Assembly: GCF_000741645.1 (NCBI RefSeq)
Contig: NZ_JGZD01000009.1
Coordinates: 620,001 to 684,000, forward strand
Source: Bifidobacterium minimum
GTDB taxonomy: Bacteria; Actinomycetota; Actinomycetes; Actinomycetales; Bifidobacteriaceae
Reading direction: 5' to 3'
DNA: 64,000 nt
The translations under genes and the position numbers were made by a program. Positions 39,830 to 49,556 of this stretch are shown here, one piece after another. The notes under the pieces are model-generated. The model was not told the DNA's origin and did not search any database. It was given only the letters and a program-made list of their open reading frames with translations. Positions within the stretch are counted from its first letter, which is position 1. Every line of letters starts with the position of its first letter.

Positions 39830-40573
39830 TCATCGCCCCTCGGCGCCGTATCGGGAAAGATACTCGTCCGCGCGTCGGATCAGATTCTCACCGACCACGG
39901 GATTCCCCCGGGAGTCGGTTATCGAGGCCGCCGCCGCGAAAAGCTCGCGGACGTTGGCGATGGGCAGCACGGGGAATCCGAACTCGTCCTCGACACTGCG
40001 CACCGCGGACCGTCCCGATTCGTCCGCACGTTCCATGCGGTCGACGGACAGCACAAGGCCGGCGATCCTCACGTCGGCCGCGGCCCTGAGCTTGGGGATG
40101 ACCTCTCGCACCGCCGTTCCCGCGGTCATCACGTCATCGACGAGGAGGACGTTCATGCCGTCGCGCAGCGGCATGCCGACGAAGTCGCCGCCGTCCCCGT
40201 GGTCCTTGCGCTCCTTGCGGTCGAAGGTGTATCCCACGCCGTGCAGGGGTCCGTTCAGGGCCATCGCCGTCGACACCGCCAGGGGGATGCCCTTGTACGC
40301 CGGTCCGAAGATCGTGTCGATGTCCCCATGTATCTCGCCGGATTCCCGCGCGGCCAGCACGCGCTGGGCATAGAACTCGCCGAGTCGCGCGACGAGGGAG
40401 CCGGTGTCGAATGCCCCGGCGTTGATGAAGTACGGCGAGCGGCGTCCCGACTTCAGCGTGAAGTCGCCGAACCGCAACGCCCCCGCGTCAAGAAGGAAAC
40501 GGGTGAAGCGCGCATGCGCCGTTTCCGCGCTGCCATAGTCGTTCGCAGCCGTGGTCGTGGTCGTATCGGTCAT
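39830..40573 (-). CDS. pyrE: Orotate phosphoribosyltransferase
   Basis: Orotate + PRPP to orotidine 5'-phosphate. The 247-residue protein has [22 protein letters not shown] split across residues 26-47 with [23 protein letters not shown] near 91, [10 protein letters not shown] near 117 and the PRPP signature [16 protein letters not shown] near 143. The first ~15 residues are a poly-Thr, poorly conserved stretch. The ATG at 40573 overlaps the pyrD stop as ATGA. Last gene of the pyr operon. Confidence 0.96.
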
Positions 40574-41532
40574 CTCCAGGTTCCTCCATTCGCCAGTCGA
40601 CGCGCCAGTTCGGGCCGTGAGTCGAGCAGATCGTCGAGTTCGCGCGCCACCCTCAGCGGCGCAGTGGGATCGTACAGGGCAGCCGCCCCCACCTCCACGG
40701 CATTGGCGCCTGCATACAGATACTCCAGAGCCTTCTCCCCCGAATCGATTCCGCCTATGCCGATCAGCGGGATCGTGGGAAGCGCCTGACGCACGCGCCA
40801 GACGAATCCCAGGGCGATGGGGAATATGCAGGGGCCTGACACGCCTCCGGTACGGTTCGCCAGAATGGGCTCGCCCGTTCGAATGTCGATTCGCATGCCG
40901 ACGATGGTGTTGATCAGGCTCAGCGCGTCCGCCCCCGAATCGACGGCCGCCCTGGCGATGGGAACGATGTCGGTCACGTTCGGGGAGAGCTTGACGGTCA
41001 TCGGCTTGTCGGTGAGCCCGCGGAGCCGGACGATCAGACGTCCCAGCGCCACGGCATCGCTTCCCACGCTCATCCCGCCGTGACTGACGTTGGGGCAGCT
41101 CACGTTGATCTCCAGCATGTCCGCGGGAGAATCGTTCATCTTCGCGACGACCTCGGCGTAGTCGTCATCGCTGTGTCCCGCCACGTTGGTCACCACCGTG
41201 GCCCCCAGCTCCTTGAGCTTGGGCAGTTCGTCCACAAGATAATGGTCCACGCCGGGGTTCTGCAGACCGACGGAATTAACCGTTCCCGCTGGCGTCTCGG
41301 CGGTACGGGGAGACGGATTCCCCTCCCATGGAACGGGCGAGACCCCTTTGGTGCTGATGGCGCCCATCTGGCTCACGTCGTAGAACCATCGGCAGGCGGC
41401 CAGCTGGAACGTTCCCGACGCCGTCCCCACCGGGTTCTTCCACGGGACGCCCGCCACGATGGTGGGATGCCTCCACTGATGCGGTTCCAGAACATTCATC
41501 GATCGATCCGATTCCCGATCGTGCCCCCTCAT
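40570..41532 (-). CDS. pyrD: Dihydroorotate dehydrogenase, class 1B catalytic subunit
   Basis: FMN enzyme oxidising dihydroorotate; class 1B uses PyrK to pass electrons to NAD. Seen in the 320-residue protein: [13 protein letters not shown] near 31, [18 protein letters not shown] near 58, catalytic-loop [12 protein letters not shown] near 138 (Cys) and the FMN phosphate site [17 protein letters not shown] near 268. The ATG at 41532 is chosen for its GGAAGGAG 7 bases upstream; extension to 41613 would add a low-complexity stretch. Preceded by pyrK, as the class predicts. Confidence 0.94.
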
Positions 41533-41671
41533 GCCACGGCTCCTTCCGTCGTCGTCCATGTCGTCTCTCATGCCGTTCGTCCCGTTCGTTCTGTTCGTCC
41601 CGTCGTCCGCCACGTTGCCTTCCTCACCGTCCGCCTCCTATGCCATCTATGCCGTCGAGGTGGCCCCCCAT

Positions 41672-42499
41672 TCAGGCCTCGATCCCCCACCCGAGCTGCT
41701 CGGTGGTGAAAACCGGGCCATCCGAACACACCTTGAGACGCCCCTGTGCCGTGTCGACGGTGCACACCACGCATGTGCCATAGCCGCAGCCCATTCTGGA
41801 CTCCAGACTGAACTGGGCCGCTATGGAATGCCGTCTTGCCCAGGCGGCGACGGCCTTCATCATCGGCGTGGGGCCGCAGGACAGGATTACGGGCGGCAGC
41901 CCGTCATCGTCGAGGGAATCCTCAAGCCGGTCGAGCAAAGTGATGACGTTTCCCTCCGCGTTGGTGATGCTGGTGGCGCGTCCGACGAACGGGGAGACTA
42001 TGGGATCGGCGAAGCGCGCGTCGCGATAGCCGAACACCGAGGTGACGCTCACGTCGTCGCGGCCGCTGAGATGCTGGGCCGCATAGATCAGCGGCGGGAC
42101 TCCCAGCCCTCCGCCCACAAGAAGATAATGGGCGCCTGCGCGCAGGTCATAGGATTTCCCGAGCGGCCCCATCACGTCGATCCCGTCTCCGGCGCGCAGA
42201 TGGGAGAATTCCTCGGTCCCCTTCCCCACGACCGCGTATATGACCGACACCTCGTCTCCATCGGTGGAGCACACGCCCAGAGGTCGGGGCATCAGACGGA
42301 GGGGATTGGACGAGTAGAGGGTGACGAACTGCGCGGGCTTCGCGTGCCGAGCGATGTAGTCGTCGCGGAAGGTCAGCCGGTAGACGCCCTGCGTGAGGCG
42401 TTCGGAGGAGACGACCTCGGCATGCCGGCGTCCGGGGAACCGTCCGGCGTCCGTGGCACGGCTGGTGACGTCGTATGCACTGGCGGTTGTGTGTGGCAT
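41672..42499 (-). CDS. pyrK: Dihydroorotate dehydrogenase electron transfer subunit
   Basis: Binds FAD and a [2Fe-2S] cluster and links PyrD to NAD. The 275-residue protein has an FAD-binding barrel (RLMPRPLGVCS near 69), the NAD-binding HYLLVGGGLGVPPLIYA near 123, and a C-terminal cluster with the Cys pattern MGCGYGTCVVCTV plus a final Cys in LKVCSDGP. AGAGGA lies about 10 bases before ATG 42499. All four cluster cysteines are present. Confidence 0.94.
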   Translation of the reverse strand: MPHTTASAYDVTSRATDAGRFPGRRHAEVVSSERLTQGVYRLTFRDDYIARHAKPAQFVTLYSSNPLRLMPRPLGVCSTDGDEVSVIYAVVGKGTEEFSHLRAGDGIDVMGPLGKSYDLRAGAHYLLVGGGLGVPPLIYAAQHLSGRDDVSVTSVFGYRDARFADPIVSPFVGRATSITNAEGNVITLLDRLEDSLDDDGLPPVILSCGPTPMMKAVAAWARRHSIAAQFSLESRMGCGYGTCVVCTVDTAQGRLKVCSDGPVFTTEQLGWGIEA

Positions 42500-42569
42500 G
42501 GTTCGATGGTCCTCTCCCTAGATTTCGTGGTGTCTGCTGCGTGTCGTCGTCCGCGTCATTCGACCATCG

Positions 42570-43535
42570 TCATGCGAGCGCGGCCCTGATCTCGTCCCGC
42601 ATCGAGATGGCCGCTTCGCGGGCGCAGCGGGATACGACGGCGAGGATCTCCTCCACGCCCATGGACGGGTCGAGCGTCTGCCCGTGCCGCCACGCTCCGA
42701 TGATCCCCCGGGATGAGTTGACGATCGCCCCCGATCCCCGATCATCGAACATGGGGGCGATGTCATGGGCCGTGCCGCCCTGGGCGCCGTATCCCGGCAC
42801 AAGGAAGAACGTGTGGGGCATGCGGCGGCGCAGGCGGGCGCCTTCGTCGCTGTGCGTGGCGCCGACGACGGCGCCCAGACGCGAGTATCCGTGATCCCCT
42901 ATGGTGTCGCTCCCCCAGTCGGACACGAGGTCGGCGACGTGTTCGTACAGACGATGTCCGTCCTGGAGAAGGCATTCCTGGACGTCGTCGCTGGAGGGGT
43001 TCGACGTGCGCACCAGAGCGAATGCGTCCTTGTCGTGGTCGCGTGCGGCCGTGACGAAGGGGATGATGCCGTCCGATCCCAGATAGGGATTGACGGTCAC
43101 CGCATCCTCATGCCACACGTCGATGGCGTCGCCGCCCGGACTGACGGGCAGCCCGGACAGATGCGCGGCGTACGCCTGGGCCGTGGATCCGATGTCCCCG
43201 CGTTTGACGTCACCGATGACGTACAACCCTCTGCTCCTCGCATAGCCGCAGGTCATGGCGTAGGCATCGAGACCCGCGGGACCCAGAGCCTCGTACATGG
43301 CGATCTGCGGCTTGACCGCGGGAACCACGTCCGCGATCGCGTCGATGATGGCCCGGTTGAACTCCATGTATGCCACGGCCAGTCTTTCGGTCGGAAGCTC
43401 CGACGCGTCGACCTCCCGGGCGACCTCCGGCTCAAGCGCCGTGACAAGGCAGTCGGGAACGACGTGGGGTGTGGGGTCGAGTCCGACCACGCTCGGGTTG
43501 TCCGCGGCCTCTATCGCGTCGATAAGACGATCCAT
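42570..43535 (-). CDS. pyrF: Orotidine 5'-phosphate decarboxylase (type 2)
   Basis: Final step to UMP. The 321-residue protein belongs to the longer type 2 subfamily, with SVVGLDPTPHVVPD near 14, VKPQIAMYEALGPAG near 73 and the catalytic VIGDVKRGDIGSTAQAY near 104 (Asp-Lys-Asp array), then LVPGYGAQGG near 240. The upstream gap to pyrC is 86 bases of tandem repeat. Part of the pyrBICFKDE cluster. Confidence 0.95.
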   Translation of the reverse strand: MDRLIDAIEAADNPSVVGLDPTPHVVPDCLVTALEPEVAREVDASELPTERLAVAYMEFNRAIIDAIADVVPAVKPQIAMYEALGPAGLDAYAMTCGYARSRGLYVIGDVKRGDIGSTAQAYAAHLSGLPVSPGGDAIDVWHEDAVTVNPYLGSDGIIPFVTAARDHDKDAFALVRTSNPSSDDVQECLLQDGHRLYEHVADLVSDWGSDTIGDHGYSRLGAVVGATHSDEGARLRRRMPHTFFLVPGYGAQGGTAHDIAPMFDDRGSGAIVNSSRGIIGAWRHGQTLDPSMGVEEILAVVSRCAREAAISMRDEIRAALA

Positions 43536-43566
43536 GTGCTGCCGTTTCCTCTCTTGGTGTCGTTCT

Positions 43567-43624
43567 GGCGGTGTCGTGCCGGCGGTGTCGTGCCGGGTGG
43601 TTCGGGGTCAGTCGTTCGGGGTCA
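43567..43624. repeat. 14-bp period repeats between pyrC and pyrF, reaching the pyrC stop
   Basis: Two exact copies of GGCGGTGTCGTGCC (43567-43594), then two copies of GTTCGGGGTCA with 14-base spacing (43600-43610 and 43614-43624). The last three bases of the second copy form the pyrC stop codon. Confidence 0.85.
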
Positions 43625-45064
43625 ATGGGTGAGCGCGCAGTACACCAGACGCGATCCGATGATGGTGGCCATCGCCCGTCCGGTGACGGTCCATCCGTCG
43701 AAGGGGGTGTTGCGGGCTCTGGACCGGAAGCGTGCGGCATCGATGGTCCAGGGGTGCGAGACGTCCAGAATCGTGAGATCAACGGCCTCGGGATGCTCGA
43801 CGTGGGAGAGGTCGAGCACGCGATGCGTGGCGCAGGGACTTGAGGTGGTGAGCAGCGCCGCCACATCGGTGGACGCATGACCCATCAGATGATTGGGTGC
43901 GAGGGACATGAGCTCGATCAGCCGCGCGTCGTCGATGTATCCTCCCCCGACGAGCACCGTGCGGCAGACTCCATAGGCGGTCTCCAGCCCGATCACCCCG
44001 TTGGGCGCGTCGAGCATGCCCCCGCCCTTCTGCTCCACGGTGTGCGGCGCATGGTCGGTGGCGATCATGTCCACCGTCCCATCGGCGACGGCGGCGATGG
44101 TTGCCTGACGGTCCGCGGCCGATCTGAGGGGAGGGTTCATCTTGGCCAATGGGCCGTATTTCTCCACGTCCTCATCGCACAGGGCCAGATAGTGTGGTGC
44201 GGTCTCGCAGGTTATGGGAACGCCCTGGGACTTGGCCTCGCGGATGAGGTCGAAGGATCTCGCCGTGCTCACGTGCTGAAGATGGATATGGGCTCCGGTG
44301 CGCCGGGCCGCGTCGATGTCGCGTTCGATGATGGACGTCTCTGTCTCGGGGGGTATCCCCTCGAATCCCAGCCGTCGACTGACCTCGCCGTCGGTCATGA
44401 CGCCGGAGTCATGATGCTCGCAATGATCCGATATGGGGATCCCCGCGGCCAGGGCATTCGCCATCGTCGCGTCGAGGAGGGCGTCCGGAACCGTCGCCCC
44501 ATCGTCGCTGATCGCCCTGATGGGATGATCGAGCGCGGCCGCGCCGTCCCGTGCGTCCCGCGTGGCGGAAGAGGGCGGGACCAGATACCGCGACCAGTCG
44601 GAAAGCCGTGTCGGCTCCCTCCCCTGGCGTCCCAGGGACGCGCACACGGTCAGGTCGTAGCGCACGGGAAGAGGATGATGGGTCCTCTCGTAGGTTTCGA
44701 GGTAATCCAGCACGGTGTCGCACCCCTGGCTGCGCACCTCGTCAGCGCCGGTCATGCCGTCTCGGACGGTGGTGCCATCCGCCGCGGGGAGGGTGTTGGG
44801 CATGACCAGGACACGGGTGTATCCGCCGGCGGCCGCGGCGCGGGCCCCAGTCTCCATCGTCTCCTTGTCGGTCTGTCCGGGATCGCGGAAATGCACGTGG
44901 GGATCGGCGAGTCCGGGAGCCACCGTGAGATCCGAGGCGTCGATCACCGAGTCCCGGCCCATGGGGGTGTCGAGCATCGCGCGCTCGGCGTCCACGCCGG
45001 GCAGAACGAGGTCGATGCGCTCGCCGGTGTTCCACACGCGGATGTCCGTCAGAGTTATGCCCAT
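43622..45064 (-). CDS. pyrC: Dihydroorotase (type I)
   Basis: Closes carbamoyl aspartate to dihydroorotate. The 480-residue amidohydrolase has LADPHVHFRDPGQTDKET near 53 (metal His pair), PNTLPAADGTT near 89, HCEHHDSGVM near 212 and IATDHAPHTVEQ near 331 (Asp and His). ATG 45064 starts MGITLTDIRVW, two bases after the pyrI stop; the 36-residue ORF extension runs into pyrI and is rejected. It is longer than the usual ~430 residues, with an insertion near 165-190. Confidence 0.94.
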   Translation of the reverse strand: MGITLTDIRVWNTGERIDLVLPGVDAERAMLDTPMGRDSVIDASDLTVAPGLADPHVHFRDPGQTDKETMETGARAAAAGGYTRVLVMPNTLPAADGTTVRDGMTGADEVRSQGCDTVLDYLETYERTHHPLPVRYDLTVCASLGRQGREPTRLSDWSRYLVPPSSATRDARDGAAALDHPIRAISDDGATVPDALLDATMANALAAGIPISDHCEHHDSGVMTDGEVSRRLGFEGIPPETETSIIERDIDAARRTGAHIHLQHVSTARSFDLIREAKSQGVPITCETAPHYLALCDEDVEKYGPLAKMNPPLRSAADRQATIAAVADGTVDMIATDHAPHTVEQKGGGMLDAPNGVIGLETAYGVCRTVLVGGGYIDDARLIELMSLAPNHLMGHASTDVAALLTTSSPCATHRVLDLSHVEHPEAVDLTILDVSHPWTIDAARFRSRARNTPFDGWTVTGRAMATIIGSRLVYCALTH

Positions 45065-45066
45065 GG

Positions 45067-45486
45067 TCAGAGCTTCGCCTCCTCGTCGCAGTAGTCGCAC
45101 CGGTACTCCTGACGTTCGGAGTGCGCCAGATGGAAGCGCTGATGGATTCCGGGCTCCGTCGTCGTCACGCATCGGGGATTCACGCAGGTGATCACGTCGA
45201 CGACGTGCTCGGGAGACTTCGGCTTGGATTTGCGCACGATTCTGCCTCCGCGCACGATGTCGACCGTCGCCTGACGCGCCACGAAGCCCAGCACGTCCAG
45301 ATCGATGTCCGCGTCATCCTCGATTTTGATGATGTCCTTGCTTCCGAAGCGGCGGCTGGACGCGTTCATGATCAGAGCCAGACGCGTGGTCGAGGGATTG
45401 ATGCGCAGATACCGCAGAACCGTCAGTGCCGTTCCCGCCGGCACGTGGTCGATGATCACGCCATCGCGGATGCTGGTGACCTCCAT
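45067..45486 (-). CDS. pyrI: Aspartate carbamoyltransferase regulatory subunit
   Basis: Confers nucleotide feedback on PyrB. The 139-residue protein has the N-terminal nucleotide-binding domain (GTALTVLRYLRI near 18) and a C-terminal zinc domain with four Cys: CVNPRC near 101 and CDYC near 131, the usual C-x4-C and C-x2-C pattern. The ATG overlaps the pyrB stop by one base (TGATG), so the two are coupled. Its presence implies a regulated holoenzyme as in enterics. Confidence 0.95.
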   Translation of the reverse strand: MEVTSIRDGVIIDHVPAGTALTVLRYLRINPSTTRLALIMNASSRRFGSKDIIKIEDDADIDLDVLGFVARQATVDIVRGGRIVRKSKPKSPEHVVDVITCVNPRCVTTTEPGIHQRFHLAHSERQEYRCDYCDEEAKL

Positions 45487-46511
45487 CAGATTCCCACCTT
45501 TCCCGACAGTGGACGCGCGGGTTCGTACCCGGCGAGATCGTCGCCCACCACCATGCTCTCCAACGCCATGCGCACGAGCATGCCGTTGCGCACCTGATCG
45601 AAGTACGCCGCGCGTGGATCGGAGTCGACCTCGACGGCTATCTCGTTGACGCGGGGAAGGGGATGGAGCACGGCCATGTCCGGCTTCGACATCGCGAGCT
45701 TCGCCTCGTCGAGGATGTAGGTGTCGCGCAGGCGCAGGTAGTCGTCCTCGTTGAAGAAGCGCTCCTTCTGGACCCTCGTCATGTAGAGGACGTCGAGATC
45801 GCCGATAACCGCCGTGAGATCCCGCACCTCCGTGTATGAGCATGAGGGCGTCGCGTCGATGCGGTCGAGAACGTACTGGGGCGTCGTGAGCTCCTCCGGG
45901 CTGATGAGGACGAAGTGCACGTCTCCGAACCGGCACAGCGTCTCGATGAGGGAGTGCACCGTGCGACCGAAGGTCAGATCGCCGCATAGGCCGACGGTGA
46001 GGTCGGTGATCCTTCCGAAGCGGGACCGCAGCGTCGCGAGATCCGCCAGAGTCTGGGTGGGATGCATGTGTCCGCCGTCCCCGGCGTTGATGACCGGAAC
46101 CCGTGACGCCTCGGCGGCCACCAGGGCCGCCCCCTCCTTGGGGTGTCTGATCGCCACCACGTCGGCGTAGTTCGACACCGTCTTGAGGGTGTCGCTGATG
46201 GACTCGCCCTTGGTCACCGAGGCCAGCTGGGCGCCGGCGAAGCCGATGACCTTCCCTCCCAGACGAAGCATCGCGGTTTCGAAGCTCAGGCGCGTGCGGG
46301 TGCTGGGCTCGTAGAACAGCGTCGCCAGGACACGGCCATCGCATGTGTGGGACACCTCGGCGCGGTGGGCGTCGATGTATCCCGCCCTGTCAAGGATGTC
46401 CTGGATGTCAGTGGTGGACATGTCGTCGAGCGTGACGATGCTATGCCCTTCCAGAGAGCTTGTGGAACGGGGTGTCACGCGAGGGGACTCGCTAGGGATT
46501 TCAGCGGACAT
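45486..46511 (-). CDS. pyrB: Aspartate carbamoyltransferase catalytic subunit
   Basis: First committed pyrimidine step: aspartate + carbamoyl phosphate. The 341-residue protein has the carbamoyl-phosphate loop FYEPSTRTRLSFETAM near 67, SVTKGESISDT near 97 and HPLPRVNEIAVEVD near 284. AAAGG precedes the ATG. It heads pyrB-I-C-F-K-D-E. The 74-base upstream gap shows no attenuator or PyrR-like hairpin that I can recognise; feo genes read into it from upstream. Confidence 0.97.
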   Translation of the reverse strand: MSAEIPSESPRVTPRSTSSLEGHSIVTLDDMSTTDIQDILDRAGYIDAHRAEVSHTCDGRVLATLFYEPSTRTRLSFETAMLRLGGKVIGFAGAQLASVTKGESISDTLKTVSNYADVVAIRHPKEGAALVAAEASRVPVINAGDGGHMHPTQTLADLATLRSRFGRITDLTVGLCGDLTFGRTVHSLIETLCRFGDVHFVLISPEELTTPQYVLDRIDATPSCSYTEVRDLTAVIGDLDVLYMTRVQKERFFNEDDYLRLRDTYILDEAKLAMSKPDMAVLHPLPRVNEIAVEVDSDPRAAYFDQVRNGMLVRMALESMVVGDDLAGYEPARPLSGKVGI

Positions 46512-46585: not shown

Positions 46586-47002
46586 TCAGCTCGCGCGGCG
46601 CAGCGACGAGACGGCCTTCCGCAGCAGCGCGAGGACGGATCGGAACCACCGGCGCGTGACGTCCGAGGACCGGGATGACGGAGGGCTCAGAGGACATCCC
46701 GCGCATATGAGCGACCCCGGGTCGGGCGAGCAGGATCCCCATGAGCATGGAGCCGATGCGTCATCCGTGGTCGGCGGCGTCGGCGATCGTCCCGTGTCGG
46801 CCGTATGCCGCGCGACCATCGCCACGAAGTCGCGTGGCAGACCGAGCCGGCGGGCGCAGGCGTCGATTCCGAAGCCGGAGGACAGCATCCGCGCTATCGC
46901 GTCGACGACGGAACCGTCAGCCGTAGGCCGCGTCGCCGATGTGTGCCGGAAGCCCCTCCTTCTCGACGTCGATTTCATCACGCCATCTCCCGTTCCCGTC
47001 AT
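46586..47002 (-). CDS. FeoC-like four-cysteine helix-turn-helix protein
   Basis: A 138-residue protein I do not find a name for. Residues about 31-63 read as a helix-turn-helix (SVVDAIARMLSSGFGIDACA then RRLGLPRDFVAMVARH). Residues 86-103 hold four Cys spaced C-x4-C-x8-C-x2-C followed by Pro, resembling the Fe-S or zinc tail of E. coli FeoC (C-x4-C-x2-C-x5-C). A basic helix ends the protein. The ATG at 47002 overlaps the feoB stop as ATGA; ATG 46978 with GGGAG 8 bases upstream is the alternative start. Position as third gene after feoA-feoB supports a FeoC role. The function is inferred. Confidence 0.65.
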   Translation of the reverse strand: MTGTGDGVMKSTSRRRGFRHTSATRPTADGSVVDAIARMLSSGFGIDACARRLGLPRDFVAMVARHTADTGRSPTPPTTDDASAPCSWGSCSPDPGSLICAGCPLSPPSSRSSDVTRRWFRSVLALLRKAVSSLRRAS

Positions 47003-49035
47003 AGCACCAGACGGAGGAGCTGGAAGGCGGCCATCGCGAGAGCGTAGGCGACGACGAGACCCAGAACGACGGTGGCGCCCATGACGCGCGTTCCGAACTG
47101 TCGTCTCAGTTCGGCCACCGTGGCCAGACAGGGCGTGTACGCCAGGACGAACAGGAGGAATGCGATGGCCGTCGCGCGTCCATGGCCGTCGGATGAGGCG
47201 TCGAACGACCGTCTGATGGACTCGCCCAGGGTTCCCCCGCTCTGATCGGTCTGCGACGAGGAGTCGTCCTCGTCGATGTTGTAGGACTGCGACATCGAGC
47301 CCACGACGACCTCCTTCGCGACGAATCCGGTGATCAGCGCGGCCGAGGCGTGCCAGTCGTCGAATCCCGCGGGGGCGAATACGGGGGCCACGGCGTCGGC
47401 GACCGTGCCATAGAGGGAATCGTGCACGTCCTCGACGTCCCCGAAGGACCCGGCGCCTGCCGTGGCGGGAATGCCCTGCAGAAGCCACATGAGGACGATC
47501 ACCGTCACGATGATGCCGCTCGCCCCACGGATGAAGCCCCATAGGCGCGTTCCGACGGATCGCAGCGTCGTGACGGCTTTGGGCATCTGATAGGAGGGCA
47601 GGCTCATGGCGAAGGGCTCGGGACGCAGCCCGTGGAACACCGTGTGCCGGAGCGCCACCCCCACGAGGAGGATGAGAAGTATGGACGCCACGTACATGAG
47701 GAAGATGACCAGACCCGCGTTCCGTTGGAAGAAGGCGTATGCGAGGACCATATACACCGAGAGGCGGGCCGAGCAGGACGTGAACGGTATGAGCATCCCG
47801 ACGAGGATCCTCTGCCGCGAGTCCTCGAGGGACCGGGTGGCCGCCAGGGCGGGGAGGTTGCATCCGAATCCCACGACGATGGGGAGGAACGCCTTGCCGT
47901 CCAGTCCCAGAGCCCGCATGGCCCTGTCCATGACGAAGGCCGCCCTGGCGAGATAGCCGGAATCCTCGAGTATGGAGAGAAGAAGGAACATGATGCCCAT
48001 CGGCGGGATGAACGTCGCCACCGATATCACCCCATCGAGGACGCCGTCGACGATAAGCGAGTGCGGCCATCCGGACAGAGCCTGAGGTCCGCCCAGCGAG
48101 AACAGGCCTTCCACCCCGGCGGTGAGCCAGGCCCGCAGCGTCACGTCGATCCAGTCCTGGATGGGACCGGCCACGGTGGTCGTCGCCTCGAAAACGATGT
48201 ACATCACGACGAGAAAGGCGGGAATGCCGAACCAGGGGCTCAGCAGAAGCGCGTCGATGCGGTCGGATGCGGTGACGCGAGGCGGTCGTGTCGATGATGT
48301 ACGCGAGAGTATGCCCGCGACCCAATCGAATCGTCGGTCGGCGTTCGACCGTACCCATGAGGACAGTCCCTCCTCGGAGGGGACGTGGCCGTCGGCCTGC
48401 GTGACGGAACTCCTTGCCAGCCCCCGCTCGATGGCGTCCTCCAGCTCGGGCAGGCCCGCACCGGTGCGTCCATCCACCTCCACGACGTCGACGCCCCCCA
48501 GAGCCTTCGACAGTGCGGACGGATCGATTCCGCATGACCGGCGGCGCGCCAGATCGTTCATGGTGAGGGCCACGACCAGAGGGACTCCGATCTCGCGCAC
48601 CATGGACAGCAGATACAGCGATCGCGACATGCTTGTCGCATCGAGGACGGCGACCATGAGGTCCGGGCGCGGCGCGCCGTCGAGTCCCAGAACCGCCTTC
48701 GACGTGACCTTCTCGTCGGGCGACATCGGAAGCAGTGAGTATGTGCCGGGGGTGTCGATGACGTTCCAGTGTCCGTCATGGCGGGCGAGCGTGCCGTATT
48801 CGAGAAGAACGGTGGTCCCGGGCGCGTTCATCACTCGCGCGTGCATGCCGAGCATGGCGTTGAACAGTGATGATTTACCCACGTTGGGATTGCCTACGAG
48901 GACGATCCGCCTTTCCGCCGCATGGCCGTTCCGTGCGGGGGCATCGTCCCGGCGGGCGGATGGGGAGCCTGCGGACTGCGACGGAGGCTCGACGGCGGAT
49001 GGCCGTGACTCGCAATAGGGGCATTCTCTGGACAT
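46999..49035 (-). CDS. feoB: Ferrous iron transporter FeoB
   Basis: Fe2+ permease with a cytoplasmic G domain, 678 residues. It begins MSRECPYCESR, a Cys pair, then G1 VGNPNVGKSS near 47-56, G3 DTPG at 94-97, and a G4 region reading TMND (158-161) where NxxD is usual. The membrane part carries both Gate motifs, with GCNLPALAATRSLEDSRQR near 390, PFTSCSARL near 412 and KEVVVG and TPCLATVAEL near 590-645. Its stop overlaps the FeoC-like gene and feoA lies 5 bases upstream. Confidence 0.95.
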   Translation of the reverse strand: MSRECPYCESRPSAVEPPSQSAGSPSARRDDAPARNGHAAERRIVLVGNPNVGKSSLFNAMLGMHARVMNAPGTTVLLEYGTLARHDGHWNVIDTPGTYSLLPMSPDEKVTSKAVLGLDGAPRPDLMVAVLDATSMSRSLYLLSMVREIGVPLVVALTMNDLARRRSCGIDPSALSKALGGVDVVEVDGRTGAGLPELEDAIERGLARSSVTQADGHVPSEEGLSSWVRSNADRRFDWVAGILSRTSSTRPPRVTASDRIDALLLSPWFGIPAFLVVMYIVFEATTTVAGPIQDWIDVTLRAWLTAGVEGLFSLGGPQALSGWPHSLIVDGVLDGVISVATFIPPMGIMFLLLSILEDSGYLARAAFVMDRAMRALGLDGKAFLPIVVGFGCNLPALAATRSLEDSRQRILVGMLIPFTSCSARLSVYMVLAYAFFQRNAGLVIFLMYVASILLILLVGVALRHTVFHGLRPEPFAMSLPSYQMPKAVTTLRSVGTRLWGFIRGASGIIVTVIVLMWLLQGIPATAGAGSFGDVEDVHDSLYGTVADAVAPVFAPAGFDDWHASAALITGFVAKEVVVGSMSQSYNIDEDDSSSQTDQSGGTLGESIRRSFDASSDGHGRATAIAFLLFVLAYTPCLATVAELRRQFGTRVMGATVVLGLVVAYALAMAAFQLLRLVL

Positions 49036-49040
49036 GTCGC

Positions 49041-49307
49041 TCAGATTCGGGCCGCGCCGCGGACGATGATGGTGCGGGCGGTGGCCGAATCCAGCGCGAT
49101 CCGCTCGGAGCCTCTGGCCAGCACGCGTCCCCCGAACGCGCAGCGCTGGATGACGCGCACATGCTGACCGGGACGCAGACCCAGTTCCGATAGCCTGAAC
49201 CGGTGGCCGTCGTCAAGACGCACCGAGTCGATGACATGGTCCTCGTGAAGCGGGCAGGAGGATACGCTCATGGTCGTCATGGGATGAGGCGATGCGATAT
49301 TTATCAC
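49041..49307 (-). CDS. feoA: FeoA, iron transport accessory protein
   Basis: Small SH3-like protein that assists FeoB. The product has HRFRLSELGLRPGQHVRVIQ and a final IALDSATARTIIV strand, the FeoA core. The start is unsettled: GTG 49307 gives 88 residues, while ATG 49280 gives 79. No Shine-Dalgarno fits either. A good promoter places transcription start at about 49308-49310, so GTG 49307 would be leaderless; I list that longest form. Confidence 0.88.
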   Translation of the reverse strand: MINIASPHPMTTMSVSSCPLHEDHVIDSVRLDDGHRFRLSELGLRPGQHVRVIQRCAFGGRVLARGSERIALDSATARTIIVRGAARI

Positions 49308-49315
49308 AAAAAATC

Positions 49316-49344
49316 ATTATGCGAGTGATTGACCGTAAAAACAA
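49316..49344 (-). promoter_or_regulatory. Promoter of feoA-feoB
   Basis: On the minus strand TTGTTT (49339-49344) is 17 bases from CATAAT (49316-49321), the best -35/-10 pair I saw in the window. It lies in a strikingly AT-rich patch beside the poly-A/T run 49309-49314. No DtxR/IdeR-type palindrome is evident. The rest of the 249-base gap to glnE holds a direct repeat CTTTCCATGTTTT and CACCGTCCGTCCG copies. Confidence 0.6.
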
Positions 49345-49556
49345 GACTTGCTTTCCATGTTTTCCGGACTTTCCATGTTTTTAGGACGGAGAATCGTCCG
49401 CTTTCGCAGAATCCGCGCAACGATGACGGTATCGGCGGCGGTATCGGCGACGGGGTCGCCGGCGTGACGGTATCGTCCGATGCAGGCGTTCGTCCATCAT
49501 GTCACCGTCCGTCCGATGCCGGCATCCGTCCGCCGCGTCACCATTAGCCCGTCACG

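Follow-up and report, generated by a model that had tools for sequence, protein, structure and literature searches.

A FeoC-like gene follows feoB in Bifidobacterium minimum and in many related bacteria

Main

The third gene of the feo operon in the window (that is, the whole stretch of 64,000 nucleotides of Bifidobacterium minimum DNA analysed here) encodes a protein that resembles FeoC in gene position, size, helix–turn–helix (HTH) domain and cysteines, although it fails the Pfam score for FeoC and departs from it in cysteine order. We consider it fairly probable that the protein is a divergent FeoC, probably binding an iron–sulphur (Fe–S) cluster, that controls FeoB. In a survey based on Pfam models, 95% of 5,365 Feo systems comprised FeoA and FeoB only, and FeoC was found mostly in Gammaproteobacteria (PMC8749426); the word bifidobacteri* is absent from the main text of that survey, and a term search for feo found no occurrence of the word in a study of iron limitation in Bifidobacterium breve (PMC5449479). 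Among the papers listed in searches of the open-licence PMC literature, none had a title or abstract start on FeoC in bifidobacteria or on this family.

The feo locus of the window

On the minus strand, feoA, feoB and the feoC-like gene adjoin one another in that order (window 46586–49307; Table 1), and the initial annotation, which had described the third gene as completing a feoABC-type operon and as coupled to feoB through ATGA, holds on both counts. The cysteines of the motif (residues 86, 91, 100 and 103; C-x4-C-x8-C-x2-C-P) follow an HTH that lies N-terminal to them, which is the arrangement given in that annotation; a fifth cysteine (residue 49) lies inside the HTH and is not conserved, and Met9 is an alternative start. 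Because a first search recovered orthologues in 9 of 38 other genomes (10 of 39 including its own), with FeoB adjoining the gene in 10/10 loci, we take the reading frame to be more than a chance one.

Table 1 Features of the feo locus in window coordinates
Feature	Position	Strand	Basis
feoC-like gene, 138 codons and stop	46586–47002	−	open frame; orthologues in genus
feoB, ferrous iron transport protein B, 678 aa	46999–49035	−	TIGR00437 467.5 bits (cut-off 315.65); PF02421, PF07670, PF07664
feoA, 88 aa, GTG start	49041–49307	−	PF04023 43.3 bits (cut-off 23)
ATGA, overlap of feoC-like start and feoB stop	46999–47002	−	sequence
GFRHT, residues 17–21, short N-terminal motif GFRxT	46940–46954	−	loose pattern in genus
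Predicted three-helix HTH, residues 32–70 (helices 32–41, 46–53, 57–70)	46793–46909	−	AlphaFold2
C-x4-C-x8-C-x2-C-P, residues 86–104, putative Fe–S or metal site	46691–46747	−	cysteine conservation
Predicted C-terminal basic helix, residues 113–137	46592–46666	−	AlphaFold2; tail charge

Directly downstream of the feoC-like gene and in the same direction, beginning 74 bases past its stop, is a putative pyrimidine biosynthesis cluster (pyrB, pyrI, pyrC, pyrF, pyrK, pyrD and pyrE; window 39830–46511, identified by eye). Upstream of feoA, AAAACATGGAAAG occurs twice without mismatch at a spacing of 18 bases (window 49369–49381 and 49351–49363, minus strand), with no further copy within the window at one mismatch or fewer; the two copies are followed by the inverted repeat CAAGTCTTG (window 49342–49350). 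L081 and L049 have this inverted repeat before feoA as well, and other loci have looser forms of it. These repeats are possibly an operator or part of the promoter. A DtxR-type operator upstream of feoA was rejected as a candidate, as scans of 45 loci and the window (which repeats L082) with a DtxR consensus gave no excess over shuffles.

Retention and loss together with feoB

When a ten-row profile was searched against 112 Bifidobacterium genomes, the window's own included, matches were obtained in 50. FeoB exceeds the NCBIfam cut-off in 46 of the 112, and in a 47th (G006) its halves were matched in separate frames; the feoC-like gene is present in all 47 (complete in every one but G114, where a contig end removes its start), although these co-occurrences, coming from related genomes, are not independent events. 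All 22 loci recovered from named genomes belong to Bifidobacterium or Bifidobacteriaceae. The other 65 genus genomes yielded one intact feoC-like gene, two remnants and, in 62 cases, no match. The intact gene (L041, in G044) stands beside a broken feoB, and only the cysteine end (CxPDPxSLVCxGCP) is left in the remnants (L042 in G053 and L043 in G070); these three are decaying feo loci. Across the genus, the feoC-like gene is kept and lost together with feoB.

Wherever its position could be judged (46 of the 47 FeoB genomes, G114 being at a contig end), the gene lies directly downstream of feoB. Among the 45 genus loci in which the junction could be judged, start and stop overlap by four bases in 32, the start falls 0 to 9 bases past feoB in nine, and in four the frame has no start codon until 190 bases on. 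In G089 (L049/L247) the two genes share one frame, but we rejected this as a natural FeoB–FeoC fusion, because a frameshift, which may be a sequencing error or a real lesion, removes the last FeoB helix and lets the frame run into the feoC-like gene. The presence of such a gene after feoB extends to all 46 judged loci of the genus, but is not confined to bifidobacteria and is found order-wide (see below).

Loss of the cysteines in orthologues, named in the initial annotation as a refuting result, was not seen: all four are kept in 48/48 genus proteins, among them the start-truncated G114 protein. The spacing is C-x(3-7)-C-x8-C-x2-C-P in every one of the 48, with a first gap of x4 in 22, x7 in 15, x5 in 9 and x3 in 2, and seven of the nine invariant columns among 46 aligned genus proteins fall within the cysteine region. 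Outside this region, GFRxT and its variants (a loose motif pattern) occur in 39/48 genus proteins, where shuffling the residues gave 2.2 on average, and may be a docking motif for some partner; the L078 protein (G112) carries GFRxT three times. The tail past CP has a net charge of +1 to +9 in the 48 proteins.

Relationship to FeoC

Database models alone leave the relationship hidden. The window protein has no match up to E 10 in Pfam or NCBIfam (including FeoB_associated, PF12669; an HTH is predicted instead), a search of its own genome with the FeoC model PF09012 gave no hits, and none of 46 genus proteins (alignment A2, 46 of the 48) reached the PF09012 gathering score, the best value being E 0.018, in one of the 46. 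The best PHROGs match, at E 0.2, was to an HTH protein; three FeoC chains of the PDB were among ten profile-search hits, but at E 0.29–0.32 they ranked under unrelated HTHs.

In profile–profile comparison, alignment by hhalign of A2 with 13 FeoC proteins (A3, consisting of E. coli FeoC and 12 of the 16 FeoB-adjoining loci among 30 PF09012 loci) gave a probability of 95.2 and an E value of 2.6e-8 over 65 columns, and pairs the HTH, and also the final C-x2-CP with the C-x2-CP of FeoC. Three loci that represent the actinomycete type (L101, L107 and L111) were omitted from A3, as was L096, which nearly duplicates L092; L100 is a fragment without FeoB, and the frames of L106, L116 and L120 fall outside the set. 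As these hhalign figures are pairwise values, controls were run against A2: a six-row DeoR-type set scored 3.5, a three-row MarR/DtxR-type set 3.7 and the best of 60 column shuffles 2.2, in contrast to 89.3–96.3 for five random six-row FeoC subsets. The control rows are weak hits of PF09012 itself away from FeoB and are therefore hard negatives, although the sets are small (6 and 3 rows) and their family labels were given by eye, the second comprising two MarR-like proteins and one DtxR-like protein. Taken alone, the HTH part scored 89.1 with FeoC and 4.4 and 6.8 with the DeoR-type and MarR/DtxR-type sets, whereas the cysteine region alone was weak (probability 11.2 with FeoC).

This specificity has a limit. 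With 23 of 41 typed order-level proteins (A4) the DeoR set scores 93.2 and the MarR set 82.7, and with A3 they score 95.8 and 93.0, so that the link between A4 and FeoC is less specific. It is the bifidobacterial profile that carries the specificity, since FeoC itself matches the DeoR set at 95.8. At the level of sequence profiles, then, the relationship of the genus proteins to FeoC exceeds that to two small winged-HTH control sets. Intermediates point the same way: the G262 and G530 proteins match both the genus profile (E 1.5e-5 and 9.1e-4) and PF09012 (25.2 and 26.0 bits; cut-off 21), which is the top Pfam match for each. A 57-row order-level profile without Bifidobacterium rows (A7, that is, 57 of 58 proteins, one duplicate being omitted) recovers the gene of the window with an E value of 3e-14, and the five strongest matches of this profile from outside the order (G320, G415, G235, G158 and G180) are PF09012 FeoC genes beside FeoB. 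The kinship with FeoC proposed in the initial annotation is thus upheld by the controlled profile comparison and the intermediates, but not by the PF09012 gathering score.

Compared with FeoC as known from E. coli, Klebsiella and Salmonella (PF09012), the window gene likewise comes third, after feoB, and its start overlaps that gene (the overlap is one base in E. coli K-12 and four, ATGA, in the window); it likewise encodes a small HTH protein with four cysteines that include a C-x2-C-P pair and with profile similarity. It differs in that the genus proteins score under the PF09012 cut-off, in an additional N-terminal GFRxT segment, a basic C-terminal helix and the lack of a predicted wing, and in cysteine order: C-x4-C-x2-C-x5-C in E. 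coli FeoC, with the fourth cysteine after the pair, versus C-x4-C-x8-C-x2-CP in the window, with that cysteine before it.

Predicted structure

Two AlphaFold2 models, the first of the window protein with 21 named relatives (22 rows) and the second built on 19 rows, had pTM values of 0.38 and 0.44 and contain no metal. The first places the HTH helices at residues 32–41, 46–53 and 57–70 (pLDDT block means 92–96 for residues 31–70), and the second has the same HTH; the cysteine region was modelled at low confidence in both, and helix 113–137 has block means of 70 (residues 111–120), 93 and 89. Neither model contains wing strands, although their alignments are shallow (22 and 19 rows). Of the winged helix, whose absence from a structure prediction the initial annotation had named as refuting, the three-helix core is confidently predicted and the wing is not seen, which goes half-way towards that refutation. 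Foldseek and VIA-align returned generic HTH proteins, with no FeoC among the best 50 matches of each; the closest structural matches to the predicted HTH are DNA-binding domains such as that of DeoR.

The slot after feoB across the order

Searched across the order, the genus profile finds relatives in 57/396 genomes and 20 of 109 genera, and FeoB lies just upstream in 38 of the 39 places read outside Bifidobacterium (19/19 and 19/20), the exception resembling ribosomal protein S5. The 57-row order-level profile has matches in 117/396 genomes, but the weaker places are short HTH stretches and were given no weight. FeoB itself is present in 90 of the 396 genomes, 11 of them Bifidobacterium, and 80 of the 81 FeoB loci in the other 79 genomes were surveyed for the gene that follows (G035, whose FeoB is truncated at the end of a contig, was left out; so was G723, which the genus profile matches although the FeoB list lacks it).

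A FeoC-like gene comes next after feoB in 58 of these 80 loci (iterated profile, E < 1e-4). As the iterated profile was trained partly on the scored set, its E values are flattering, and the conservative count is the 54 of the 58 that reach E 1e-3 or better with the bifidobacterial profile by itself. The four-base overlap with feoB recurs in 53 of the 58, one (G661) has no clear HTH by eye, and PF09012 matches 7 of 57 order-level proteins with E values of up to 3.6e-4, a level close to its gathering score. Their cysteines follow the bifidobacterial order (C-x2..8-C..C-x2-C) in 40 and the E. coli order (C-x4-C-x2-C..C) in 13 of the 58, while five fit neither, three of which look like the E. coli order except that the first gap is wider; both orders are found within one family (f8). 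The C-x2-C pair falls in one column block of the alignment, and the simplest reading of this would be that the pair and a first cysteine are old, whereas the position of the fourth ligand varies between lineages, some having it behind the pair and others ahead of it; this reading depends on the alignment of short, divergent sequences.

The same slot holds a NifU-like protein in 11/80 loci (L215, L216, L218, L228, L231, L232, L236, L237, L238, L239 and L244), PF01106 being above its cut-off in all 11, and a PF12669-type cysteine-rich membrane protein in 6/80, of which five are above the cut-off and G823 is just below. The NifU-like partners share the gene slot and a CxxC motif tied to Fe–S biology with the FeoC-like proteins, but are 178–223 aa long, end in a NifU-like domain and have no FeoC-like match; FeoB of these loci carries a different C-terminal tail. 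Searching the open-licence PMC literature, we found no paper on the FeoB/NifU-like pairing by title among the matches listed. The FeoB_associated proteins (PF12669) likewise combine this slot with a cysteine cluster, but are short membrane proteins without an HTH and follow other FeoB loci of the order. No such gene follows feoB in 3/80 loci (G655 and the second loci of G789 and G668), and in G033 (1/80) the contig edge leaves too little DNA after feoB. At L233 (G534), the reading frame after feoB has an N terminus like that of the NifU-type partner by eye and a four-cysteine end, GCSSQACAPSGCTGCP; it has no Pfam match up to E 0.1 and looks like a cysteine-module swap.

Proposed function and alternatives

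Several properties of known FeoC proteins inform our reading. In Salmonella, FeoC protects FeoB from FtsH, and oxygen damage to the Fe–S cluster of FeoC hastens its removal by Lon (PMC10710835, which also cites, by title, work on FeoC binding to FeoB and on a [4Fe-4S] cluster in Klebsiella FeoC). In E. coli, FeoC assembles a [4Fe-4S] cluster, and replacing its two central cysteines (C61S/C64S) produces a phenotype like that of a deletion (PMC8749426); in the alignment of A2 with A3, C61 and C64 align with the shared C-x2-C pair. By analogy, we infer an Fe–S-bearing FeoB partner that tunes FeoB to oxygen or iron; the iron or oxygen sensor suggested in the initial annotation is likewise a candidate role. 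The third gene would yield a small cytoplasmic protein produced in step with FeoB, its three-helix domain would dock not on DNA but on FeoB, in the way that FeoC docks on the G domain of FeoB, and its four cysteines would bind an Fe–S cluster, most likely [4Fe-4S], in place of that of FeoC; the state of this cluster, set by oxygen or iron, may then determine whether the protein protects or activates FeoB. As Vibrio FeoC is functional without cysteines (PMC8749426), a purely structural role is also possible.

Four other explanations have to be weighed against this. The four cysteines may form a structural zinc site in a FeoB assembly factor without redox sensing, which we regard as unlikely. 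Zinc ribbons typically hold C-x2..4-C / C-x2-C arrangements such as those found here, and AlphaFold cannot tell metals apart; against zinc stand the ferrous-iron context of the operon and the G740 relative from the order, whose C-x2-C-x7-C-x2-CP weakly matches the Fe–S protein CIAPIN1/anamorsin (PF05093; E 0.0058), although this hit is below the cut-off, the proteins are otherwise unrelated and convergence is likely. The [4Fe-4S] cluster formed by E. coli FeoC argues in the same direction (PMC8749426). It is rather improbable that the protein is a convergent combination of an HTH and cysteines that is not homologous to FeoC. The fold is short and generic, the cysteine order differs and Pfam is negative, and Gomez-Garzon et al. 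allow that cysteine motifs beside feoB could be convergent (PMC8749426), yet the HTH part is specifically FeoC-like against two winged-HTH controls, and the same gene position is occupied by a series of intermediates, among them proteins spaced like FeoC.

We give little credence to an Fe–S-dependent, DNA-binding transcription factor for the feo operon, a role that has been proposed for FeoC itself (PMC8749426). Such a factor would fit the confidently predicted HTH core and its closest structural matches, DNA-binding domains such as DeoR, but simple scans found no operator common to all loci upstream of feoA, and the putative recognition helix (consensus start LPxDF) is slightly acidic, with a mean net charge of −1.2 across 46 proteins. 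As HTH charge ranges widely among both the DeoR controls (−5 to +2) and FeoC (−4 to +5), this last point does not decide. Equally hard to favour is a protein that hands over iron or Fe–S, passing Fe2+ from FeoB to cluster assembly: the NifU-like (11/80) and PF12669-type (6/80) proteins in the same slot of the order speak for it, but the HTH domain and the resemblance to FeoC would need a separate explanation, and we know of no iron or Fe–S hand-over activity of FeoC. On balance, we favour a divergent FeoC that acts on FeoB.

A bolder extension, which we put forward tentatively and think somewhat doubtful, is that actinomycete FeoB is generally paired with a dedicated Fe–S or cysteine module from a fixed third gene slot, exchangeable between FeoC-like, NifU-like and cysteine-rich membrane partners, that among the FeoC-like proteins the fourth ligand moved repeatedly across a fixed C-x2-C pair and so gave differently tuned sensors of iron or oxygen, and that the rarity of FeoC is a detection artefact, FeoC being ancestral and near-standard in many Feo systems.

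Implications

Pfam's FeoC model recognises 7/57 order-level and 0/46 genus FeoC-like genes, although 58/80 and 46/46 loci, respectively, have one. A FeoC-like partner therefore goes unrecognised by the standard database model here and in many related bacteria, and the published figure of 95% of Feo systems lacking FeoC may be too high. If these proteins are FeoC, a better profile would allow a direct test of whether FeoC is ancestral or was acquired. For bifidobacteria, most of which are anaerobes of the gut, the protein is a concrete candidate for regulating the uptake of ferrous iron.
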